A DNA stretch of 64,000 nucleotides from positions 2,947,001 through 3,011,000 of the forward strand of contig NZ_CP081153.1 of the NCBI RefSeq assembly GCF_025140835.1. Direction: 5' to 3'. This stretch comes from Aliiroseovarius sp. M344 (GTDB lineage: Bacteria; Pseudomonadota; Alphaproteobacteria; Rhodobacterales; Rhodobacteraceae). The notes beneath the pieces are model-generated. The model saw nothing but the letters and a program-made list of their open reading frames with translations. It ran no database searches and was not told the origin of the DNA. Each line of letters opens with the position of its first letter. The stretch's first letter is position 1. The position numbers and the translations under genes are program-made. Shown piece by piece: positions 27,328 to 64,000 of this stretch.

Positions 27328-29163
27328 TCAGTCGATTACGCGGACGGCCCCTTTGGCAGCAGACGACGCCAGCAGCGCATAGGCCTTCAATGCCTTCGAC
27401 ACCTTGCGCTTGCGCGGTTCGGCAGGATGCCAGCCTTTTTCGTCCTGCGCAGCGCGACGGGCGGCCAGTTCGTCGTCGGACAAGGCCAAATGGATGGTGC
27501 GGTTGGGGATGTCGATCTCGATCTTGTCGCCTTGCTGAACCAGCCCGATCGCGCCCCCTTCGGCGGCTTCTGGCGAAACGTGACCGATCGACAGCCCCGA
27601 GGTGCCGCCGGAAAAACGCCCGTCGGTTAAAAGCGCACAGGCTTTGCCCAGCCCTTTGGATTTCAGATAGCTGGTCGGATACAGCATTTCCTGCATCCCC
27701 GGCCCCCCGCGCGGCCCTTCGTAGCGGATGACGACCACATCGCCTTCCTTCACTTTGCCGGTTAGAATGTCACTGACCGCCGCGTCCTGACTTTCGCAGA
27801 CATGCGCGGTGCCGGTGAATTTTAGGATGCTAGCATCCACGCCCGCCGTTTTCACGATGCAACCGTCCAGCGCGATGTTGCCGAACAGAACGGCCAGACC
27901 GCCGTCCTGACTAAACGCATGTTCCTTCGAGCGGATCACGCCGCCTTCACGGTCCGTGTCAAGTTCCTTGTAACGGTTCGACTGGCTGAACGCCTGCGTG
28001 GTGCGCACGCCACCAGGGGCGGCTTTGAACAGGCTTTCAGCGTCGGGGTTGTTGGCGACCTTGATGTCCCATTTGGCAATCGCCTCGCCCATCGTCGAGG
28101 AATGCACAGTTGAGCAATCATTGTGCAAAAGCCCAGCGCGGCTGAGCTCACCAAGGATCGAAAAGATGCCGCCAGCACGGTGCACATCTTCCATATGCAC
28201 ATTGGCTATGTTGGGCGCGACCTTGCACAGGCACGGCACATGGCGGCTGAGCCGGTCCATGTCTTTCATGGTGAAATCGACCTCGCCCTCATGCGCGATA
28301 GCCAGCAGGTGGAGAACCGTGTTGGTCGAACCGCCCATGGCAATGTCCAGTGACATGGCGTTTTCAAACGCGTCAAAGGTTGCAATCTCGCGCGGCAGAA
28401 AACCTTTTTCTTCGTTCACATAGTGGCGCTTGGTGATCTCGACGATCTTGCGCCCGGCTTCCAGAAACAGGTTCTTACGGTCCGAATGCGTGGCAAGGGT
28501 CGAGCCATTGCCGGGCAGCGCGAGACCCAGCGCCTCGGCCAGACAGTTCATCGAATTCGCGGTGAACATGCCCGAACACGACCCGCAGGTCGGGCAGGCG
28601 TTTTCTTCGATATGCTGGACCTGTTCATCCGTCAGGTCCTCGCTTGCGGCAGCAACCATTGCATCAACAAGGTCGATCTTGGTCATATCAAGATCGGCGA
28701 TGTCGATCTTACCCGCTTCCATCGGGCCGCCCGAAACAAAGATCACTGGAATATTCAAGCGCATTGCCGCCATCAACATCCCCGGCGTGATCTTGTCGCA
28801 GTTCGAGATGCACACCATCGCATCCGCACAATGCGCGTTAACCATATATTCAACGCTATCGGCAATCACTTCGCGCGACGGCAGCGAATAGAGCATGCCG
28901 TCATGGCCCATCGCGATCCCGTCATCTACGGCAATGGTGTTGAATTCCTTGGCCACACCGCCGGCCGCCTCGACCTCGCGCGCGACCATCTGGCCCAGAT
29001 CTTTCAGGTGAACGTGGCCCGGCACAAACTGGGTGAAGCTGTTCACGATAGCGATGATCGGCTTACCGAAATCGTCATCGGTCATGCCGGTCGCGCGCCA
29101 AAGGCCGCGGGCACCGGCCATATTGCGGCCATGGGTCGAAGTTCTGGAGCGATAAGCAGGCAT
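27328..29163 (-). CDS. ilvD: Dihydroxy-acid dehydratase
   Basis: A 611-residue iron-sulfur enzyme that converts 2,3-dihydroxy acids to 2-keto acids in isoleucine/valine biosynthesis. [12 protein letters not shown] and [18 protein letters not shown] hold the cluster-ligand cysteines; the C-terminal [20 protein letters not shown] block is also typical. Length matches E. coli IlvD (616). The start at 29163 fits the family N-terminus ([20 protein letters not shown]); the frame stays open for another 399 codons upstream, antisense to the epimerase gene, and that extension is spurious. Confidence 0.97.
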
Positions 29164-29319
29164 AGGGTCCCCACCTTGTCTGGAAATTGGGTTCAGAAAG
29201 CGGATTACCATTCCACGCGCAATGACACCAGCGCAGATTGGCGCGGCACGATCTAGCTTGGCGCTGCCCGATCTCCACGTTAGAAGCGACCAGAACGACA
29301 CCCTGAAAGGCACTATCCC

Positions 29320-30339
29320 ATGGCGCAGCGCAAAGTTTTGGTCACCGGGTCCGCCGGTTTTATCGGCTATCACCTGTCCAAACTTCTGCTGGCTGAAGGA
29401 TTCCGGGTCCACGGCTACGACGGGATGACAGACTACTATGACGTCACCCTGAAACAGCGCCGCCATCAGATGTTGCTGCAAGACCCCGGTTTCTCCATGA
29501 CCGAAGGGATGCTGGAAGATCAGGCGTTGTTTGACACGGTGGCGGACGACTTTGCGCCTGATGTGATCGTGCATCTGGCGGCCCAAGCTGGCGTGCGCTA
29601 CAGCCTTGAAAACCCCCGCGCCTATCTGGACAGCAACGTGATTGGCACCTTCAACGTGATGGAGGCCGCCCGGCGGCATAAGGTCGATCACCTGCTGATG
29701 GCCTCGACCAGTTCGGTGTACGGCGCAAACACCGACATGCCGTTCACCGAGACCGATAAAGCCGACACTCAGCTCACAATCTATGCCGCCACCAAGAAGG
29801 CAAACGAAAGCATGGCGCACAGCTATGCCCATTTGTGGGATTTGCCGACAACGATGTTCCGGTTTTTTACCGTCTATGGCCCGTGGGGACGCCCCGACAT
29901 GGCGCTGTTCAAATTCACCAAAGGCATCATCGACGGCACCCCCATCGACATCTACAACAATGGCGAGATGTTCCGCGATTTCACTTATGTCGAGGATCTG
30001 GTGCGTGGCATCCGCCTGTTGATCGACGCCGTGCCCGTGCGACCCGACAGCCCCGATGACATCGAAGATGGCGACAGCCTGTCGCCCGCCGCACCCTATC
30101 GCGTGGTGAACCTTGGCAATTCCGACAAGGTGCGCCTGTTGGATTTCGTCGATGCGATCGAGGATGCCTTGGGTCGAAAAGCCCAGCGCAACTATATGGA
30201 AATGCAGATGGGCGATGTTCCGGCCACATGGGCGGATGCAACGCTGTTGAAGCGGCTGACAGGCTATCGCCCCGCCACCGATTTTCGCGAAGGGGTCAAC
30301 AGCTTCGTCGCGTGGTATCGAGACTATTACAAGGTCTGA
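29320..30339 (+). CDS. NAD-dependent UDP-sugar epimerase (UDP-glucuronate 4-epimerase-like)
   Basis: A 339-residue extended short-chain dehydrogenase/reductase. The NAD-binding loop GSAGFIG is at 10-16, with STSSVYG (catalytic Ser) and YAATKK (catalytic Tyr/Lys). The [15 protein letters not shown] and [14 protein letters not shown] segments are characteristic of UDP-GlcA to UDP-GalA epimerases. It probably supplies an acidic sugar for the polysaccharide assembled by the following genes. It is divergent from ilvD and 143 bp upstream of the UDP-HexNAc dehydrogenase, with a CtrA-like box in between. Confidence 0.88.
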
Positions 30340-58079: not shown

Positions 58080-58144
58080 GGCAGGAATATCCGATGCGCG
58101 CGCGACACCGATCAAAACCGGCAGCATCTTCATTGCTTTTTTGG

Positions 58145-58254
58145 TGTAAGATGACACGTGGTTTGTCTCCTAAAAATCGACCAAGCACCTGATTTCAAAC
58201 ATTTACCATAGGAATCTTTGACATCAAATCTGCGCTTTTTTGACAGTTCGTTTG
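58145..58254 (+). repeat. Candidate transposon end: terminal TGT and three TnsB-type sites
   Basis: TGTAAGATGACA begins at 58145. Three direct repeats of the form TGACA-N5-TYTG follow: 58152-58165, 58219-58232 and 58241-58254, the last two 22 bp apart and both followed by a GCGCTTT-like tail. Terminal TGT followed a few bases later by TGACA-type repeats is the organisation of Tn7-like and Tn5053-like ends. The 5 bases just outside (58140-58144, TTTGG) would be the target duplication if correct. Confidence 0.6.
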
Positions 58255-58319
58255 GCGCTTTGATCAGAATACTCTGAAGTAGACCGGCTATGTACCGCCC
58301 CTAATTTTGCACGTCATAC

Positions 58320-58347
58320 AAAAAAGCCCGCAGGGGAACCTGCGGGC
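58320..58347 (-). terminator. Intrinsic terminator of the transposition operon
   Basis: On the minus strand a 9-bp perfect stem GCCCGCAGG / CCTGCGGGC with a 4-base loop is followed by a six-base T run, 68 bp after the tniQ stop. Confidence 0.9.
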
Positions 58348-58414
58348 GAAAGACTCGGAAAGTCCAAATTGAAGCTAGCGTAAGCTCTTTGTCTCGGCTC
58401 GAGAGTTCTTCGAG

Positions 58415-60241
58415 TTAGGTTATGCGCCCCGGTGGAAACAGATTTTCGAGCTCAGCGCTGCGACGATAAATCTTGCTGAACCGATCTCCCAACGGCAGAG
58501 GCTCAATTCCGGCCTTTTCTAGTCTGGTGGCGACGTGCTTTGCCTGCGTGTTGGCCGCATAAGCCATCATACCCAGCGTTGCGTATTCGTTCAAAAACGC
58601 GGACAACGCCTTTGAACTGATCAACCCCATCGGGCGACGTGACCGTGGATGCCGAACCATGCGGGCCGGAAGCAACGACTTTCGGACAAGCAAAGTCACC
58701 GTGGGGTCGTTGACGCGGAGCATCCGTTTTGCTTCCTGCTTTGTATGACCTTTGTGCGTCGGACCTTCGAGCTGATCTCGGAGATCTTCAAGATCGGCAA
58801 AGCAATCATGAATACTCCGTGCGCCGGCTGACCGACAAAGAGACCTCAACTTACCCGACTGTGCAATACGGATCACCTCCTCAAAATGGCATTTTGCATG
58901 TTGGCACAACCGAAAAAGCGGAATGCAGTTGGTCGAAACCTCTGGGACCACTTCAGCGTTCTCGAAGATCGACTGCTTAAATCGATCAAGGTCATCCGGG
59001 TGATAGACTGGTGCCATTGCTGGCAAGTCAAACCTCGGCTGCAGTAACGTCGCCTTCGCAAGACGCTGGAGCGCCTCTACTCTAATACCCAGCGATTTTG
59101 CGGCGGGCTTAGGACGCATACATTGTGCGAATTGCTCGAGCATTGGGTCATACTTTTGCGCCGGGAACTCGATGCGCTTCTGACGATCTTCGGTGCCGAT
59201 ACCCAACCCAACCGCCAAACTTGCCATTCTGGAGTAATTCAGATGGTGTTGTTTGGCCGCTGTCGTGAGATTGTGGACGTGGCGTTGATGACATTTCCTG
59301 CCAAAGAGCTCGTCCCCTTTTCCAAACGGATAATTCTCGAAAGCGAATTGGACGACGCAATCCAAAAGGTCAGCATATCTAGGACTGATATTGTCCAGAC
59401 GATTCAACCACCTCGCCAGTGCGCCAAAGTCGGCATGAAATCCTGGTGTCGGGCTTGTGGATGCCATCCGCACATTTCGGAAGGCCTCATCCAAAGCGTC
59501 AGTCCCCTTTGCTATCACCGCGAAAGCCTTGGCAGTAGCGCTAGATTTCTCTTCCGGCGTAAGTCCAGATGGGTTTTTTGAGGAGCCGAATTTCATGACT
59601 GTTCCAAGAGACACAGCCAAGTGGCATGTGAGGTCGAGATCGAACCGGTCACACCAAACATGCGTTGGTTCGCCTCTAATGCGGTTTGCCAAATATGTCT
59701 CCCAGGCGACGTCGCCCACGACCAAACCATCTAATTTGGCCGTTTCCACTATGTGTCGCCAATGATCTCGGACCCGTTGATAGAAATCATGAGCGCATCG
59801 TGGGAACCTGGCATCAGGTACTGCAGCCAAAGGTTTTTTGTGGATGTGGCAGACCTGATAAGAATTGAGAAGCCATTCCACACGGCAATGCCGATCTAGA
59901 TCGCCGCCTCTCTCAACATCTTCGATCAAACATGACGGGCACACCCTCAACGCCCGTCGGTCCAACGTCTTTGCTGTCAGGTATTGGTCGTTCAGATTGT
60001 AAATGTGATGCCCGCGATCTTGCACAGCAAAACGGCTGAGTTCCGCAAACGAAATGCCGACGAAGGCCGCCATTTCGGTGAGCGCTAGCCGCTCCCCATT
60101 TGCAATCTTGCGCCAAGATGCGTTCATATCCGCGCAGAAATCTTGCGCAAAACTGGCTCCGTTTCGGGCGGCAACTCTGCCAACAACTGAATTGGCCGGT
60201 TCGCCAGGAAAGGGGACAACCGATAATCGCAATCGCATCAT
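58415..60241 (-). CDS. tniQ: TniQ family target-selection protein (TnsD-like length)
   Basis: A 608-residue protein. The N-terminal TniQ domain is clear: FPGEPANSVVGRVAARNG, then a zinc-ribbon pattern CPSCLIED with HCRVEWLLNSYQVCHIHKKPL, where Cys/His pairs bind zinc. The C-terminal half is long, with helix-turn-helix-like segments (AKSLGIRVEALQRLAKATLLQPRF, TKQEAKRMLRVNDPTVTLLVRKSLLPARM). Length is nearer to TnsD-type attachment-site binders than to short CRISPR-associated TniQ. It probably recognises a fixed chromosomal site and recruits the ATPase. Its start overlaps the ATPase stop by 4 bp. Confidence 0.88.
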   Translation of the reverse strand: MMRLRLSVVPFPGEPANSVVGRVAARNGASFAQDFCADMNASWRKIANGERLALTEMAAFVGISFAELSRFAVQDRGHHIYNLNDQYLTAKTLDRRALRVCPSCLIEDVERGGDLDRHCRVEWLLNSYQVCHIHKKPLAAVPDARFPRCAHDFYQRVRDHWRHIVETAKLDGLVVGDVAWETYLANRIRGEPTHVWCDRFDLDLTCHLAVSLGTVMKFGSSKNPSGLTPEEKSSATAKAFAVIAKGTDALDEAFRNVRMASTSPTPGFHADFGALARWLNRLDNISPRYADLLDCVVQFAFENYPFGKGDELFGRKCHQRHVHNLTTAAKQHHLNYSRMASLAVGLGIGTEDRQKRIEFPAQKYDPMLEQFAQCMRPKPAAKSLGIRVEALQRLAKATLLQPRFDLPAMAPVYHPDDLDRFKQSIFENAEVVPEVSTNCIPLFRLCQHAKCHFEEVIRIAQSGKLRSLCRSAGARSIHDCFADLEDLRDQLEGPTHKGHTKQEAKRMLRVNDPTVTLLVRKSLLPARMVRHPRSRRPMGLISSKALSAFLNEYATLGMMAYAANTQAKHVATRLEKAGIEPLPLGDRFSKIYRRSAELENLFPPGRIT

Positions 60242-61242
60242 TTCTTTTTCCGCGGCTTGCGAGGTGGAACGACGTCTGGTGACACGTCCTTGCTGCTTGG
60301 TAGGAGCCGCCTTGGATTGATAGCGGAGTAGTTCTTGCGGACAAAGGGGTTCAGGTCGTTGGCACAGCCAGTACGTCGTAAGAACTCAGCGACGAAATGA
60401 TGCTTACCAAGTGTGGTCTCTTCTCGACGGAGGCAAATCTCGATCGCTCCAATTACAATTTCGATCAAGATCCCAAATTCACTTGCCGCAGAGTGTATCA
60501 AGCGTGCGATGAAGTCGTCAGACCTGAGCTCAGGCTCAAGGTCGATGCTGATTGCGGAACAATACTGTTCAAGCAAAGAACGTATCTGGCGACCGTCATC
60601 AATCTCATCGAGTTGGTCAAACTGGATGGGAGTGAACCGTCGCCCAAGCTGCGGGTCCAAGTTCAATAGTGTCAGGAGATCTGGTAGTCCGCTCAATATG
60701 ATACTGACGGGCCAATGCCGATTTTGCATCACCGACTTGAGCGTGTTCACAACCGCCAGCATCTCACGTTCGCTTTGAGAACCCATCAGATCTTGCGCTT
60801 CATCGAGGTGAAGAAATATCACTTTGAGCTCGCGTAGATGGCTTTGCACAAGTTCCCAGATAATCCCGGCCGTTCGATCCCGCATTAGGGGATAACCGAG
60901 ACCGCTCAGACACGAGATTCCAACACCTTTCAAAGTCGCGGGGGATGGAACAAGAAAACTGGCAACATCGGCTGTGTCGTTGCCATCTGCAAGAAGAGAC
61001 AAAGTCTCACTCTTTCGGAAGAAATGTGCCACGCCAGTCGATTTTCCACTGCCTGAGTTTCCAATCACAGCAAGACCCCTGGCCTCTGGATGAAGGCCTT
61101 GCGATATCTCTGCCCGCCTCCGATCTTCGAGATTGCAGATTGCGTCAGACATATCGACAAAACACTTTCGCGGCATGAAACGCCCTCGAAGCTTGGCCAG
61201 TTTCACATGAATTTCCGGTGATAATCTTGTGTGTTTGGTCAT
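60238..61242 (-). CDS. tniB: Transposition AAA+ ATPase (TnsC/TniB)
   Basis: A 334-residue ATPase. Walker A GNSGSGKS is at 61-68; Walker B is LHLDEAQD with D147-E148. The SIILSGLPDLLTLLNLDPQLGRRF stretch holds sensor-1 and arginine-finger-type residues. The N-terminal HTRLSPEIHVKLAKLRGRFMPR segment is typical of TniB. It forms filaments or rings on target DNA and links TniQ to the transposase. The C-terminus ends in a basic tail (PPRKPRKKK). Start 61242 has a GGAGGACTAACC site, 2 bp after the transposase stop. Confidence 0.92.
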   Translation of the reverse strand: MTKHTRLSPEIHVKLAKLRGRFMPRKCFVDMSDAICNLEDRRRAEISQGLHPEARGLAVIGNSGSGKSTGVAHFFRKSETLSLLADGNDTADVASFLVPSPATLKGVGISCLSGLGYPLMRDRTAGIIWELVQSHLRELKVIFLHLDEAQDLMGSQSEREMLAVVNTLKSVMQNRHWPVSIILSGLPDLLTLLNLDPQLGRRFTPIQFDQLDEIDDGRQIRSLLEQYCSAISIDLEPELRSDDFIARLIHSAASEFGILIEIVIGAIEICLRREETTLGKHHFVAEFLRRTGCANDLNPFVRKNYSAINPRRLLPSSKDVSPDVVPPRKPRKKK

Positions 61243-61244
61243 GG

Positions 61245-63377
61245 TTAGTCCTCCAATGTCCACTCCGGCTCATCGCCGTCAGTGGGTTTGTTTTGCTTGG
61301 ATTGTTGGGTGGTGTTTTCCGGTCCTGTAGGGTGCAGCGGCTCTATTTTTTTACCAAAGGGCACGTCACCATCGCCGATAGGCGGTGTCTCCGGATGATG
61401 GAAAAGCATGCCGGCGCACAGGTTGTCTTCGAGGTATTCAAGCCGCGCAGCCGTGTATTCGGGATCAATCAAGCCACCAAGTTCGCGGGCCTCATCGACG
61501 AGTTTGCGAATTTTCTGGATCGCTCGGTTTCTTTGCGGCAGCGTGAGCTCCGCCTCAGCCGCATACTTTTGCCGCAGCTCACGCATGACGCGGCTCCAAT
61601 GAGCCATCGAAAGTCCCTCTAGCTCCTCACCGTTCAATGCTGGTGCATCATACCAAACGCGATCAATTTCGACGGAAACGGCACCAATGTTGTCCGGGTC
61701 AATTCGAATGCGAACCGGCTTTCCTTTATTGCTTCGGCGAAACTTCATCAGTTCTTTGCAATCATAATGATTGGAGAAAAGCACAACGCCTTGCTTTGAC
61801 GGCGTGCGAACGTATTCGTAACCGAGCGCAACCCTGCGCGTATGTAGATCAGGCGGCTCGCTGACGTCGTAGGCCTCGACTAACTCTTTCCATCGGCTGG
61901 CGGGAGACTGGCCGCCGGGGAGACCACGATGTGGTTGATGGTGATAATGATCGACAACCCAAACAGTCAGGATTCGTGTCAGATCTTCATCGGTAAGAAC
62001 CGTGCGCTCCTCTGACGGATAGTCGCCCCTCACTATTGGACTATTGAATGTTCGCCCTGGGAGGAGTGGCATAATCTTCCGCGCCATCGTTCCGAACGCG
62101 CGTTCGATCCTGCTCCGCAGCTCAGGGATCTTCACCGGTGGGAACAGCATTATCGCGCCAAGTGTATTCACCGATAGGATGAACATATTTGAGCTGAAAG
62201 CAGAGCCAGTATCGGTACAGATCAGATGTGGGCTGCCGAAGAAATCCCAAGAGCCTTCCGCCCCGGCAGCGCGCGCAAGCTCAGTTTTGTCAGTTAGAAT
62301 TTGCGCCAGAATGCGCCTTGCGGCATCACTGTTTGGTTGCGAACAAACTGACAAACCCAAAATGCAACGCGATGCACAGTCGATGGCGACATAGATCCAG
62401 CGACGCCCATCGACAGGCATGTCTTTACGAATGTCTTCAGGAAGTTCGTTCCAAATCCCCAGTTGTTGGAATTTTACGCGAACATCGCCTTCCCATTCAT
62501 CGATTTCGACCCGTTCTAAGGCGTAGAGCAGGTCAAGGCCGCCCGATGAGACTGAATGTTTGTTGCGTGCATGATCGATGCCATCACGCAGAACAGACAC
62601 TTCGAATGGATCAAGTAGACCTATACGCCGGATAATCGTGCGCTCACATGGAACGCCCAAAAGCTTCTCGCCATTCCTGGCGCGCAGCTTATTTTCCTCA
62701 ATCAACGCGTCGCGTGTATCTTTTGCGATAACGTTATCTTTGGGGTCTTCTAGATTGATCGACGCTCTGACAAATTTCCGAATGAACTGTTCAGTATCGG
62801 CGCAAAAGCCCAAGCTCTTTTCTTTGCCTGTTCGGTACTTTGGAACCAAAACACCGGGATCATATTTGTTTTTTCGCAGCTTCTTATAGAGCTTAAGTAG
62901 GGTCTCTGGTGCATGCGGTTTCCTCTGTTGCGGCAATTTGCTACCACCGCGACGGGGGCCACCATCGATGTTTCTAACCGCCTCTTGCGCAAGAAAGACG
63001 CCAAGAATGTCGTTCCAGTTTTCCTTGAGGCTGGTGGGCGTCAGGACGATGGCACCAGCGTTTCGAAAGAACTCAAGGTTCATGCATTCCATATAGGTAA
63101 AGATTGCCGCATCGCGATCGTTTGGATGCGCATCTCGTAGTGCTTTGCTTCCTGACTTGACCGCCCTATTCAAACGTTCTCGAGCTCTTGGACCGGGTAG
63201 GTAGCGCCAGTTGTTGCTGCCCCTCAAGAAATTGATTTCTTTGCGCGTAAGCGTCTTTGGAGGTCCAGAACCCTTCTCCTTGGGTTCGAAAATACAGAGT
63301 TTGTCATTCTGAAAGGAGCACCAATGAGCCACACCGAATATGATGAATGTGTCCGCTGGATCGTAGTTGAAGATCAT
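61245..63377 (-). CDS. tniA: DDE transposase (TnsB/TniA, Mu-type integrase core)
   Basis: A 710-residue RNase H-fold transposase. The N-terminal DNA-binding region (about 1-270) is followed by the catalytic core with D293 (VEIDEWEGDV), D389 (ICTDTGSAF) and E425 (RSRIERAFGTM), a DDE triad with 35 residues between D2 and E. A Mu-transposase C-terminal beta-barrel (about 520-600) and a tail that would contact the ATPase follow. It cleaves the 3' ends and carries out strand transfer. It overlaps the TnsA-like gene by 4 bp. Confidence 0.93.
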   Translation of the reverse strand: MIFNYDPADTFIIFGVAHWCSFQNDKLCIFEPKEKGSGPPKTLTRKEINFLRGSNNWRYLPGPRARERLNRAVKSGSKALRDAHPNDRDAAIFTYMECMNLEFFRNAGAIVLTPTSLKENWNDILGVFLAQEAVRNIDGGPRRGGSKLPQQRKPHAPETLLKLYKKLRKNKYDPGVLVPKYRTGKEKSLGFCADTEQFIRKFVRASINLEDPKDNVIAKDTRDALIEENKLRARNGEKLLGVPCERTIIRRIGLLDPFEVSVLRDGIDHARNKHSVSSGGLDLLYALERVEIDEWEGDVRVKFQQLGIWNELPEDIRKDMPVDGRRWIYVAIDCASRCILGLSVCSQPNSDAARRILAQILTDKTELARAAGAEGSWDFFGSPHLICTDTGSAFSSNMFILSVNTLGAIMLFPPVKIPELRSRIERAFGTMARKIMPLLPGRTFNSPIVRGDYPSEERTVLTDEDLTRILTVWVVDHYHHQPHRGLPGGQSPASRWKELVEAYDVSEPPDLHTRRVALGYEYVRTPSKQGVVLFSNHYDCKELMKFRRSNKGKPVRIRIDPDNIGAVSVEIDRVWYDAPALNGEELEGLSMAHWSRVMRELRQKYAAEAELTLPQRNRAIQKIRKLVDEARELGGLIDPEYTAARLEYLEDNLCAGMLFHHPETPPIGDGDVPFGKKIEPLHPTGPENTTQQSKQNKPTDGDEPEWTLED

Positions 63378-64000
63378 GCCGGCACCTCAACAGATACTAC
63401 CGTCTGCAGGCCAATCTTGCCAATTGTTAACGCCTTCAATCGACCCTCGACGACCGCACGGAAGGCTGCTCGGAACCCTCGGCGGCCAAGGCCACTTGCT
63501 GCGATTAAATTTGCCAGTGTCGTCGGAGCGGCCTGATGCTTGGCAGCACGAATAATGTCTTCGTCTGCTTCGTCATCCGTCTTCTTTGAAAACTCATGAT
63601 ATCGCTGAGCATTAAGAGCTTGTGCCCTCGTGAAATCCGCTTCACTCATCAGAATGACATCGTCAGCGAAATGGCCTGGCAATGCAGCGCGCACGTAAGC
63701 AAGCCTGACATCAAAGTCGTATTTCTCGACATGATCAATCGGCTTGACCGCGATGGCATAGCAACGCTCGTCAGCCAACGTCACCTGGTAGTCGAAAGTG
63801 TGCTCGTGTAGGCTGCCATCTGGGAGGAAGAACGGAACTGGCGCCGGCTGATCCCATACATCAACTACATCACCGCGTGAGCTGATCAGCAGAATGCACA
63901 TCAATTCCAGCAAGCTTTCGTAGACGACAATCTTCTGGCGGCCGTTCAGTCTGAGGACCAGCGTTCCTCGGCAACTGGCGCGGGAGCGCCAGTTGATCTT
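63374..64000 (-). CDS. tnsA: TnsA-type endonuclease, N-terminus cut by window edge
   Basis: The frame stays open to the right edge (208 codons visible plus stop), reading from the edge through VVYESLLELMCILLIS, VWDQPAPVPF, HTFDYQVTLADERCYAIAVKP and on to a C-terminal winged-helix-like part. The order Glu (YES / LLE), QP, Asp (FDY), then Lys (VKP) 16 residues later is that of TnsA, which cuts the 5' transposon ends so that movement is cut-and-paste. The usual Glu or Gln two residues before the Lys is Ala. The true start lies outside the window. Confidence 0.75.
   Translation of the reverse strand, partial: KINWRSRASCRGTLVLRLNGRQKIVVYESLLELMCILLISSRGDVVDVWDQPAPVPFFLPDGSLHEHTFDYQVTLADERCYAIAVKPIDHVEKYDFDVRLAYVRAALPGHFADDVILMSEADFTRAQALNAQRYHEFSKKTDDEADEDIIRAAKHQAAPTTLANLIAASGLGRRGFRAAFRAVVEGRLKALTIGKIGLQTVVSVEVPA

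Follow-up and report, generated by a model that had tools for sequence, protein, structure and literature searches.

A Tn7-like transposon beside the tRNA-Lys(TTT) gene of Aliiroseovarius sp. M344 and the association of TniQ with tRNA genes among its relatives

The chromosome of Aliiroseovarius sp. M344 carries a complete Tn7-like element of 18,073 bp, one end of which lies 10 bp from the 3' end of a tRNA-Lys(TTT) gene. The window analysed here is a 64,000-bp stretch (G000:C1:2947001-3011000) of a 3.21-Mb contig, and its last 5.9 kb hold the left part of the element (58145..64000, minus strand); coordinates above 64000 are given in window-equivalent numbering, in which the element ends at 76217. 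With a probability of roughly 0.83, we take this element to be a probably mobile Tn7-like transposon of the chromosome, which moves by cut-and-paste and is led to tRNA-Lys(TTT) by protein guidance. Tn7-like elements that home to tRNA genes are already known; what adds to routine annotation is a family-wide link between the sequence of TniQ and the tRNA gene next to which the element is found.

Ends, insertion site and transposition genes

Transposition of a Tn7-like element is expected to leave paired ends and a 5-bp target duplication, and both are present. An earlier, sequence-only reading of the window had proposed a Tn7-like element starting at 58145, which is exactly the left terminus, and had named the lack of a second end or of a target duplication as grounds for abandoning the proposal. 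When the sequence was extended past 64000, the right terminus was found at 76217, 12.2 kb past the window end, together with cargo genes and an exact TTTGG duplication on both sides (58140..58144 and 76218-76222). The left terminal inverted repeat, TGTAAGATGACACGTGGTTTGTCT (58145..58168), and the reverse complement of the right-end repeat, TATAAGATGACACGTAGTTTGTCT, agree at 22 of 24 bp, and the same pair of ends was the best result of an end search run without tRNA information. A genome search with as many as 3 mismatches allowed placed the end sequence at both of the element's own ends with 0 mismatches and at one other place with 3; by profile and end-sequence searches, the genome holds one copy of the element.

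The tRNA-Lys(TTT) gene (76303-76228, minus strand) is left intact and is faced by the end opposite tniQ. Seventeen congener loci were compared, and two of them (G016 and G009) show an empty site, in which tRNA-Lys follows the efflux gene of the left flank and the element is absent; the other 15 match the right flank only and are uninformative on this point. Congeners G001, G002, G004, G007, G014 and G015 carry partial copies of the tRNA-Lys 3' end, 8-18 kb from the full gene. Integrase-type islands leave such partial copies, and mobile elements of two kinds may use the tRNA-Lys gene as a port.

Putative TnsB binding sites were sought with a weight matrix derived from the terminal sites, including the +9 site itself. 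At the left end they fall at positions +9, +76 and +98 (58153-58172, 58220-58239 and 58242-58261). The +98 site scores 21.1, compared with a best score of 16.9 across the 58-kb flank, and the +76 site is weak (5.1). A possible second site at the right end, at about +30, is also weak (4.2) and is visible by eye with a one-base shift.

A working definition of Tn7-like elements requires TnsB and TnsC plus TnsA and/or TniQ (PMC11406308). All four proteins are encoded here by overlapping minus-strand genes, tnsA, tnsB, tnsC and tniQ, each an open reading frame (ORF) with family or fold matches, so the gene set tnsA-tnsB(tniA)-tnsC(tniB)-tniQ, with its TnsA-type nuclease and long TniQ, stands as it had been read from the sequence alone. 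The tniQ gene (58415..60241) encodes a predicted TnsD-like target selector of 608 aa (PF06527, 57 bits; cut-off 27), and no second tniQ was found, this being the single PF06527 match in the whole genome. In its AlphaFold model (predicted local distance difference test, pLDDT, 90), residues 1-316 resemble TniQ/TnsD and residues 373-424 a MerR/excisionase winged helix, with further helix-turn-helix (HTH)-like segments. The tnsC gene (60238..61263) encodes a TniB-like AAA+ ATPase of 341 aa (PF05621, 63 bits, cut-off 22.4; AAA_22), with Walker A and Walker B residues kept in all 25 alignment rows and a match to Tn6677 TnsC (E 1.6e-6). The product of tnsB (61245..63377), a TniA-like DDE transposase of 710 aa (Mu-transpos_C PF09299, 26.4 bits; cut-off 21.7), matches Tn6677 TnsB (E 5e-22); D293 and D389 are kept in 25 of 26 rows and E425 in all 26.

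The endonuclease gene tnsA (63374..64132, of which the window holds the part up to 64000) was recognised through remote family, homologue and fold matches. Its own product has no Pfam match and reaches 20.5 bits with NCBIfam, far under the cut-off of 110; most homologues are 227 aa long, and two of three scanned passed the cut-off of PF08722 (TnsA_N). With a modest model (pLDDT 65), the top three Foldseek matches were all Tn7 TnsA (E 1e-4 to 5e-4), and the 50 matches listed by VIA-align included no TnsA and were mostly winged-helix matches to the C-terminal part. Residues E72/E76 and D114 are kept in all 19 alignment rows and K130 in 18 of 19. TnsA gives cut-and-paste transposition in Tn7-like elements (PMC11406308). 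Because TnsA is present and a Tn402-type resolvase is absent (the best TniR match in the element has an E value of 0.6 over 12 residues), this element would be expected to move in the same way.

Relatives and their tRNA genes

Of 394 genomes drawn from the family, 80 matched a TniQ profile at E 1e-10, and of 390 drawn from the order, 112 matched a wider profile at 1e-40. Named relatives (Loktanella, Pelagimonas, Paracoccus, Roseobacter and Celeribacter) identify the order as Rhodobacterales; a further one, a metagenome-assembled genome of Robiginitomaculum, lies outside it. We analysed 37 exploratory loci, the M344 element among them, as a subset of the matches listed, mostly the best-scoring; G006, G019 and G012 entered through TnsB, and G006 was chosen in the knowledge that its contig carries tRNA-Lys. 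A tRNA gene was assigned in 22 of the 37, G441 and G171 among them: Lys(TTT) in nine loci, Arg(ACG) in eight, Ala(GGC) in three, and Pro(CGG) and Arg(CCT) in a single locus each. Loci G425, G371a and G442 have tRNAs and were left unlabelled.

Ends were sought in 17 elements anchored at a tRNA gene. Ten, inserted 9-14 bp past the CCA, combine inverted repeats of at least 17/24 with a 5-bp duplication that is exact (five Lys(TTT), four Arg(ACG) and one Pro(CGG)). Scores of at least 17/24 were reached by 3 of 3400 random anchors, all of which fell on true element ends (the M344 element twice, G006 once), and the rest scored 16 or less. Two further elements, G062 (Ala) and G274 (Arg), reach 15/24, a level also met by 2.4% of random anchors, and in the remaining five the far end is not clear. 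In many relatives, the element end lies 9-17 bp from the tRNA. In several, the far end was found on longer stretches, 5-9 kb away, having been missed at 1.5-4 kb from tniQ; G342 has two possible far ends, and G370 a different gene order. Extension of Lys-clade loci, for which no prediction had been written beforehand, placed G440 and G107 at tRNA-Lys(TTT) and revealed no tRNA in 80 kb at G409. G352 (L063-L064) and G301 (L065-L066), which belong to two genera and have their elements behind tRNA-Arg(ACG), share near-identical TniQ and TnsC, suggesting recent horizontal transfer.

The identity of the tRNA follows the TniQ tree. With 21 rows and 5 states, 4 changes are needed, which is the minimum, and none of 500 shuffles was as low. 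This tree contains G441, a broken element with no end-like sequence at its tRNA-Lys, and leaves out G171, whose TniQ has two stops. Without G441 the tree again needs 4 changes (0/1000 shuffles as low), a strict set of 12 rows needs 3 (2/1000), and the tree with the held-out rows described below (31 rows, 5 states) needs 4 (0/1000).

For the held-out test, a nearest-TniQ rule was fixed beforehand and applied to 20 new high-scoring loci, most of them on long contigs. Nine lack a tRNA in the stretch and fell outside scoring. The predicted tRNA was present at all 11 loci with a tRNA (five Lys, four Arg(ACG) and two Ala), or at 10 of 10 when G539 (Ala), whose element end is unclear, is left out. 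When reference labels were permuted, a mean of 3.7 of the 11 were correct, and 11 was reached once in 100,000. End-like tRNA flanks in this set were judged by eye, and a far end of at least 15/24 with an exact duplication was seen in only four (G586, G575, G510 and G449b). G586 lies 17 bp from its tRNA, beyond the 8-15 bp noted in advance, and a second tRNA (Arg CCT) in its stretch, which points away from the element, was not counted. As a correlation, the link between TniQ and tRNA gene is family-wide, with two known exceptions, G409 and G449a.

Guidance of insertion

A plausible sequence of events begins with the C-terminal winged-helix domains of TniQ, which would bind the tRNA gene. The N-terminal domain, to judge from its TniQ/TnsD fold, would then load TnsC to one side of the gene, and TnsB on both ends, with TnsA, would excise the element and join it about 10 bp past the CCA, the position at which the product is observed. 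That TniQ is the tRNA reader, and how it reads, is what we infer.

Several observations weigh against tRNA homing directed by TniQ. No tRNA was assigned at 15 of the 37 exploratory loci, a clear second end is lacking in 7 of the 17 anchored elements, and the tRNA lies on the tniQ side in G292 and G643 (both Lys clade) and in G171b, unlike in the others. Three well-delimited elements are inserted away from tRNA genes: G409, with a TniQ in the Lys clade, lies in an OmpA-like ORF (35,400 bp, ends 24/24, TTCAC duplication); the held-out G449a had been predicted at Arg(ACG) (19,560 bp, 22/24, CGTAC), and the held-out score becomes 11/12 if it is counted as a miss; and G115 belongs to another TniQ branch (31,073 bp, 20/24, TCAGA). 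Such elements can therefore insert elsewhere. The TnsB tree (15 rows) and the TnsC tree (16 rows) also need the minimum, 3 changes, and the TnsA tree needs one above its minimum. Since TnsB and TnsC likewise track the tRNA, gene trees alone cannot prove that TniQ is the reader, and this equality defeated our attempt to pin the specificity on TniQ by itself from the trees of the genes. When HTH modules were compared inside each tRNA group and across groups, no single one was distinctive.

These trees are what would be seen if tRNA specificity came from the whole lineage, from TnsB/TnsC or from a host factor, and TniQ merely travelled along by common descent of the element. Against this, target selection in Tn7-like elements is known to lie with TniQ/TnsD (PMC11406308), and TniQ here carries, according to its structural model, a DNA-binding part. 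In addition, G062 and G182 have close TnsC proteins (end branches 0.075 and 0.12) and distant TniQ proteins (0.78 and 0.87), so the genes have not always evolved in step, and we regard such passive travel of TniQ as unlikely. The insertions of G409, G449a and G115 would also fit near-random insertion, after which mainly copies behind tRNA genes, which are known safe sites, survive as being in a harmless place. Survival of this kind would not select different tRNAs, such as Lys(TTT) and Arg(ACG), in different clades, and the mostly fixed orientation, the narrow distance of 9-17 bp and the one particular tRNA per clade make it a distinctly improbable explanation.

The sequence-only reading had left a choice between an attachment site and guide components past 64000. 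It is the former that applies, with the site just 3' of tRNA-Lys(TTT). RNA-guided homing, as in clustered regularly interspaced short palindromic repeat (CRISPR)-associated transposons (CASTs), is suggested by a related architecture, with TnsB and TnsC nearest to those of I-F3 among solved structures. However, the cas genes and CRISPR array or guide that define a CAST were not found: PADLOC scans of nine cargo ORFs and Pfam scans of eight (the shortest ORFs lay outside the scans) gave no cas match, the element showed no direct repeats of at least 20 bp at CRISPR spacing, and the longest sequence shared with the tRNA was 12 bp, against a mean of 11.5 bp in 100 random pieces, 42 of which were as long. 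TniQ is, moreover, long and has a winged-helix part of its own, leaving guidance by RNA with very little credibility. The element might, finally, be a relic that no longer moves, as the insertion sequence that breaks its drmA cargo and its single copy in the genome could indicate. With all four transposition genes open, the conserved residues kept and both ends and the duplication exact, we doubt this, and from these features of the sequence the element is probably mobile.

Protein-guided homing to tRNA-Lys(TTT) remains our preferred reading. A broader proposal, which we hold tentatively and at slightly under even odds, is that the C-terminal winged-helix array of TniQ is an evolvable tRNA-gene reader that, within a single alphaproteobacterial family of transposons, has been switched among four or more tRNA genes (Lys, Arg, Ala and Pro), a likely switch being that between G067 (Pro) and its neighbours G272 and G449b (Arg), and whose target might be predictable, and perhaps re-settable, from sequence.

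Known systems, cargo and significance

Like Tn7 (R721 copy used as reference), the element has a TnsA-type nuclease, a DDE transposase, an AAA+ regulator and a TnsD-like selector (N-terminal fold match), a 5-bp duplication and a TGT-type left end. In Tn7-like elements the attachment site appears to be faced by whichever end has overlapping TnsB sites (PMC11406308), and the weak TnsB sites that lie side by side at the end closest to the attachment site are perhaps another shared feature. Tn7 differs in using a glmS site, whereas the right end here lies 10 bp from tRNA-Lys; in addition, TnsC is 341 aa long rather than 555, and the gene block occupies the end away from the attachment site. Tn7 is only distantly similar by the TnsB family profile, which gives it 60 bits compared with 225 for the TniA of Tn402. 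Pfam scans of eight cargo ORFs gave no TnsE match, and no search directed at TnsE was made. A phylogeny against known families had also been proposed in the sequence-only reading; tree placement relative to Tn7 and Tn402 is unsafe because of long branches, and pairwise comparison makes Tn402/Tn5053 (R751 reference) the nearer of the two for TnsB (29% identity, E 1e-33) and TnsC (E 3e-7). In contrast to Tn402/Tn5053, the element has TnsA, a TniQ of 608 rather than 405 aa, and a tRNA site instead of res sites.

In type I-B2 and I-D CASTs and their cyanobacterial relatives, TniQ/TnsD directs insertion downstream of tRNA genes, and the tRNA differs among relatives (PMC11406308, PMC10293859). The I-B2 and I-D CASTs have a tRNA-targeting TnsD and fused TnsA-TnsB (PMC11406308), the TnsD of CyCAST homes 30-33 nt past tRNA-Leu, and TnsD proteins bear several HTH domains (PMC10293859). 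The element shares the position downstream of a tRNA with these CASTs and their cyanobacterial relatives, TniQ being the presumed director here, but it has separate TnsA and TnsB, one TniQ, no CRISPR found and a family spacing of 9-17 bp. A separate TnsA is also found in Tn6022 and I-F3 (Tn6677), the latter having the nearest solved TnsB and TnsC structures; here no cas gene was found and the target is a tRNA gene. Tn7-like elements downstream of tRNAs, and defence cargo, have been described (PMC8649781, whose main text does not contain the word DISARM), and a paper on marine islands mentions a Tn7-like element solely in Anabaena (PMC3478194). From the literature on tRNA-homing TnsD, the kind of system is already known. 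Within the literature searched, which left most subscription journals and supplementary tables uncovered and was judged from titles and the opening of abstracts, we found no description of this family or of its link between TniQ clade and tRNA.

The cargo begins with a small HTH gene (64322-64606), followed by a NOV_C-domain gene (65112-65942; PADLOC match PDC-S36), vsr (66085-66516) and a cytosine methyltransferase gene (66548-67732) with DrmMII among its matches. A 1092-aa ORF (68073-71351), without a PADLOC match, would represent the N-terminal part of drmA. It is separated from the C-terminal piece (72725-73351; DrmA, 83 bits) by an insertion sequence at about 71321-72831 (G000:C1 ~3018321-3019831), whose two transposase ORFs span 71395-72746. 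Next come drmB (73293-75212; DrmB, 247 bits) and, adjoining the right end, a 184-aa gene (75478-76032) with no Pfam match that appears phosphoesterase-like by eye. By the same kind of inspection, the latter gene is also present in the Pelagimonas element (G439 28837-29391).

DISARM comprises the drmA helicase, drmB and drmC plus a methyltransferase. No DrmC match was found among the nine cargo ORFs scanned with PADLOC, and by family match the cargo genes look like phage-defence genes of DISARM type with an interrupted drmA. The element of Loktanella sp. D2R18 (L074-L076, L159), as read from its ORF sequences, has TIR- or caspase-like genes, with serine recombinase and ParB-like genes beyond tniQ.

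For DNA insertion without a guide, recognition of the attachment site by TniQ/TnsD proteins is still an open question. The family provides a natural series of TniQ proteins in which most clades are tied to one tRNA gene and near-neighbours have different targets, so that it can be tested directly which residues of TniQ select the tRNA. For marine Rhodobacteraceae, the site behind tRNA-Lys would be a port for phage-defence genes.

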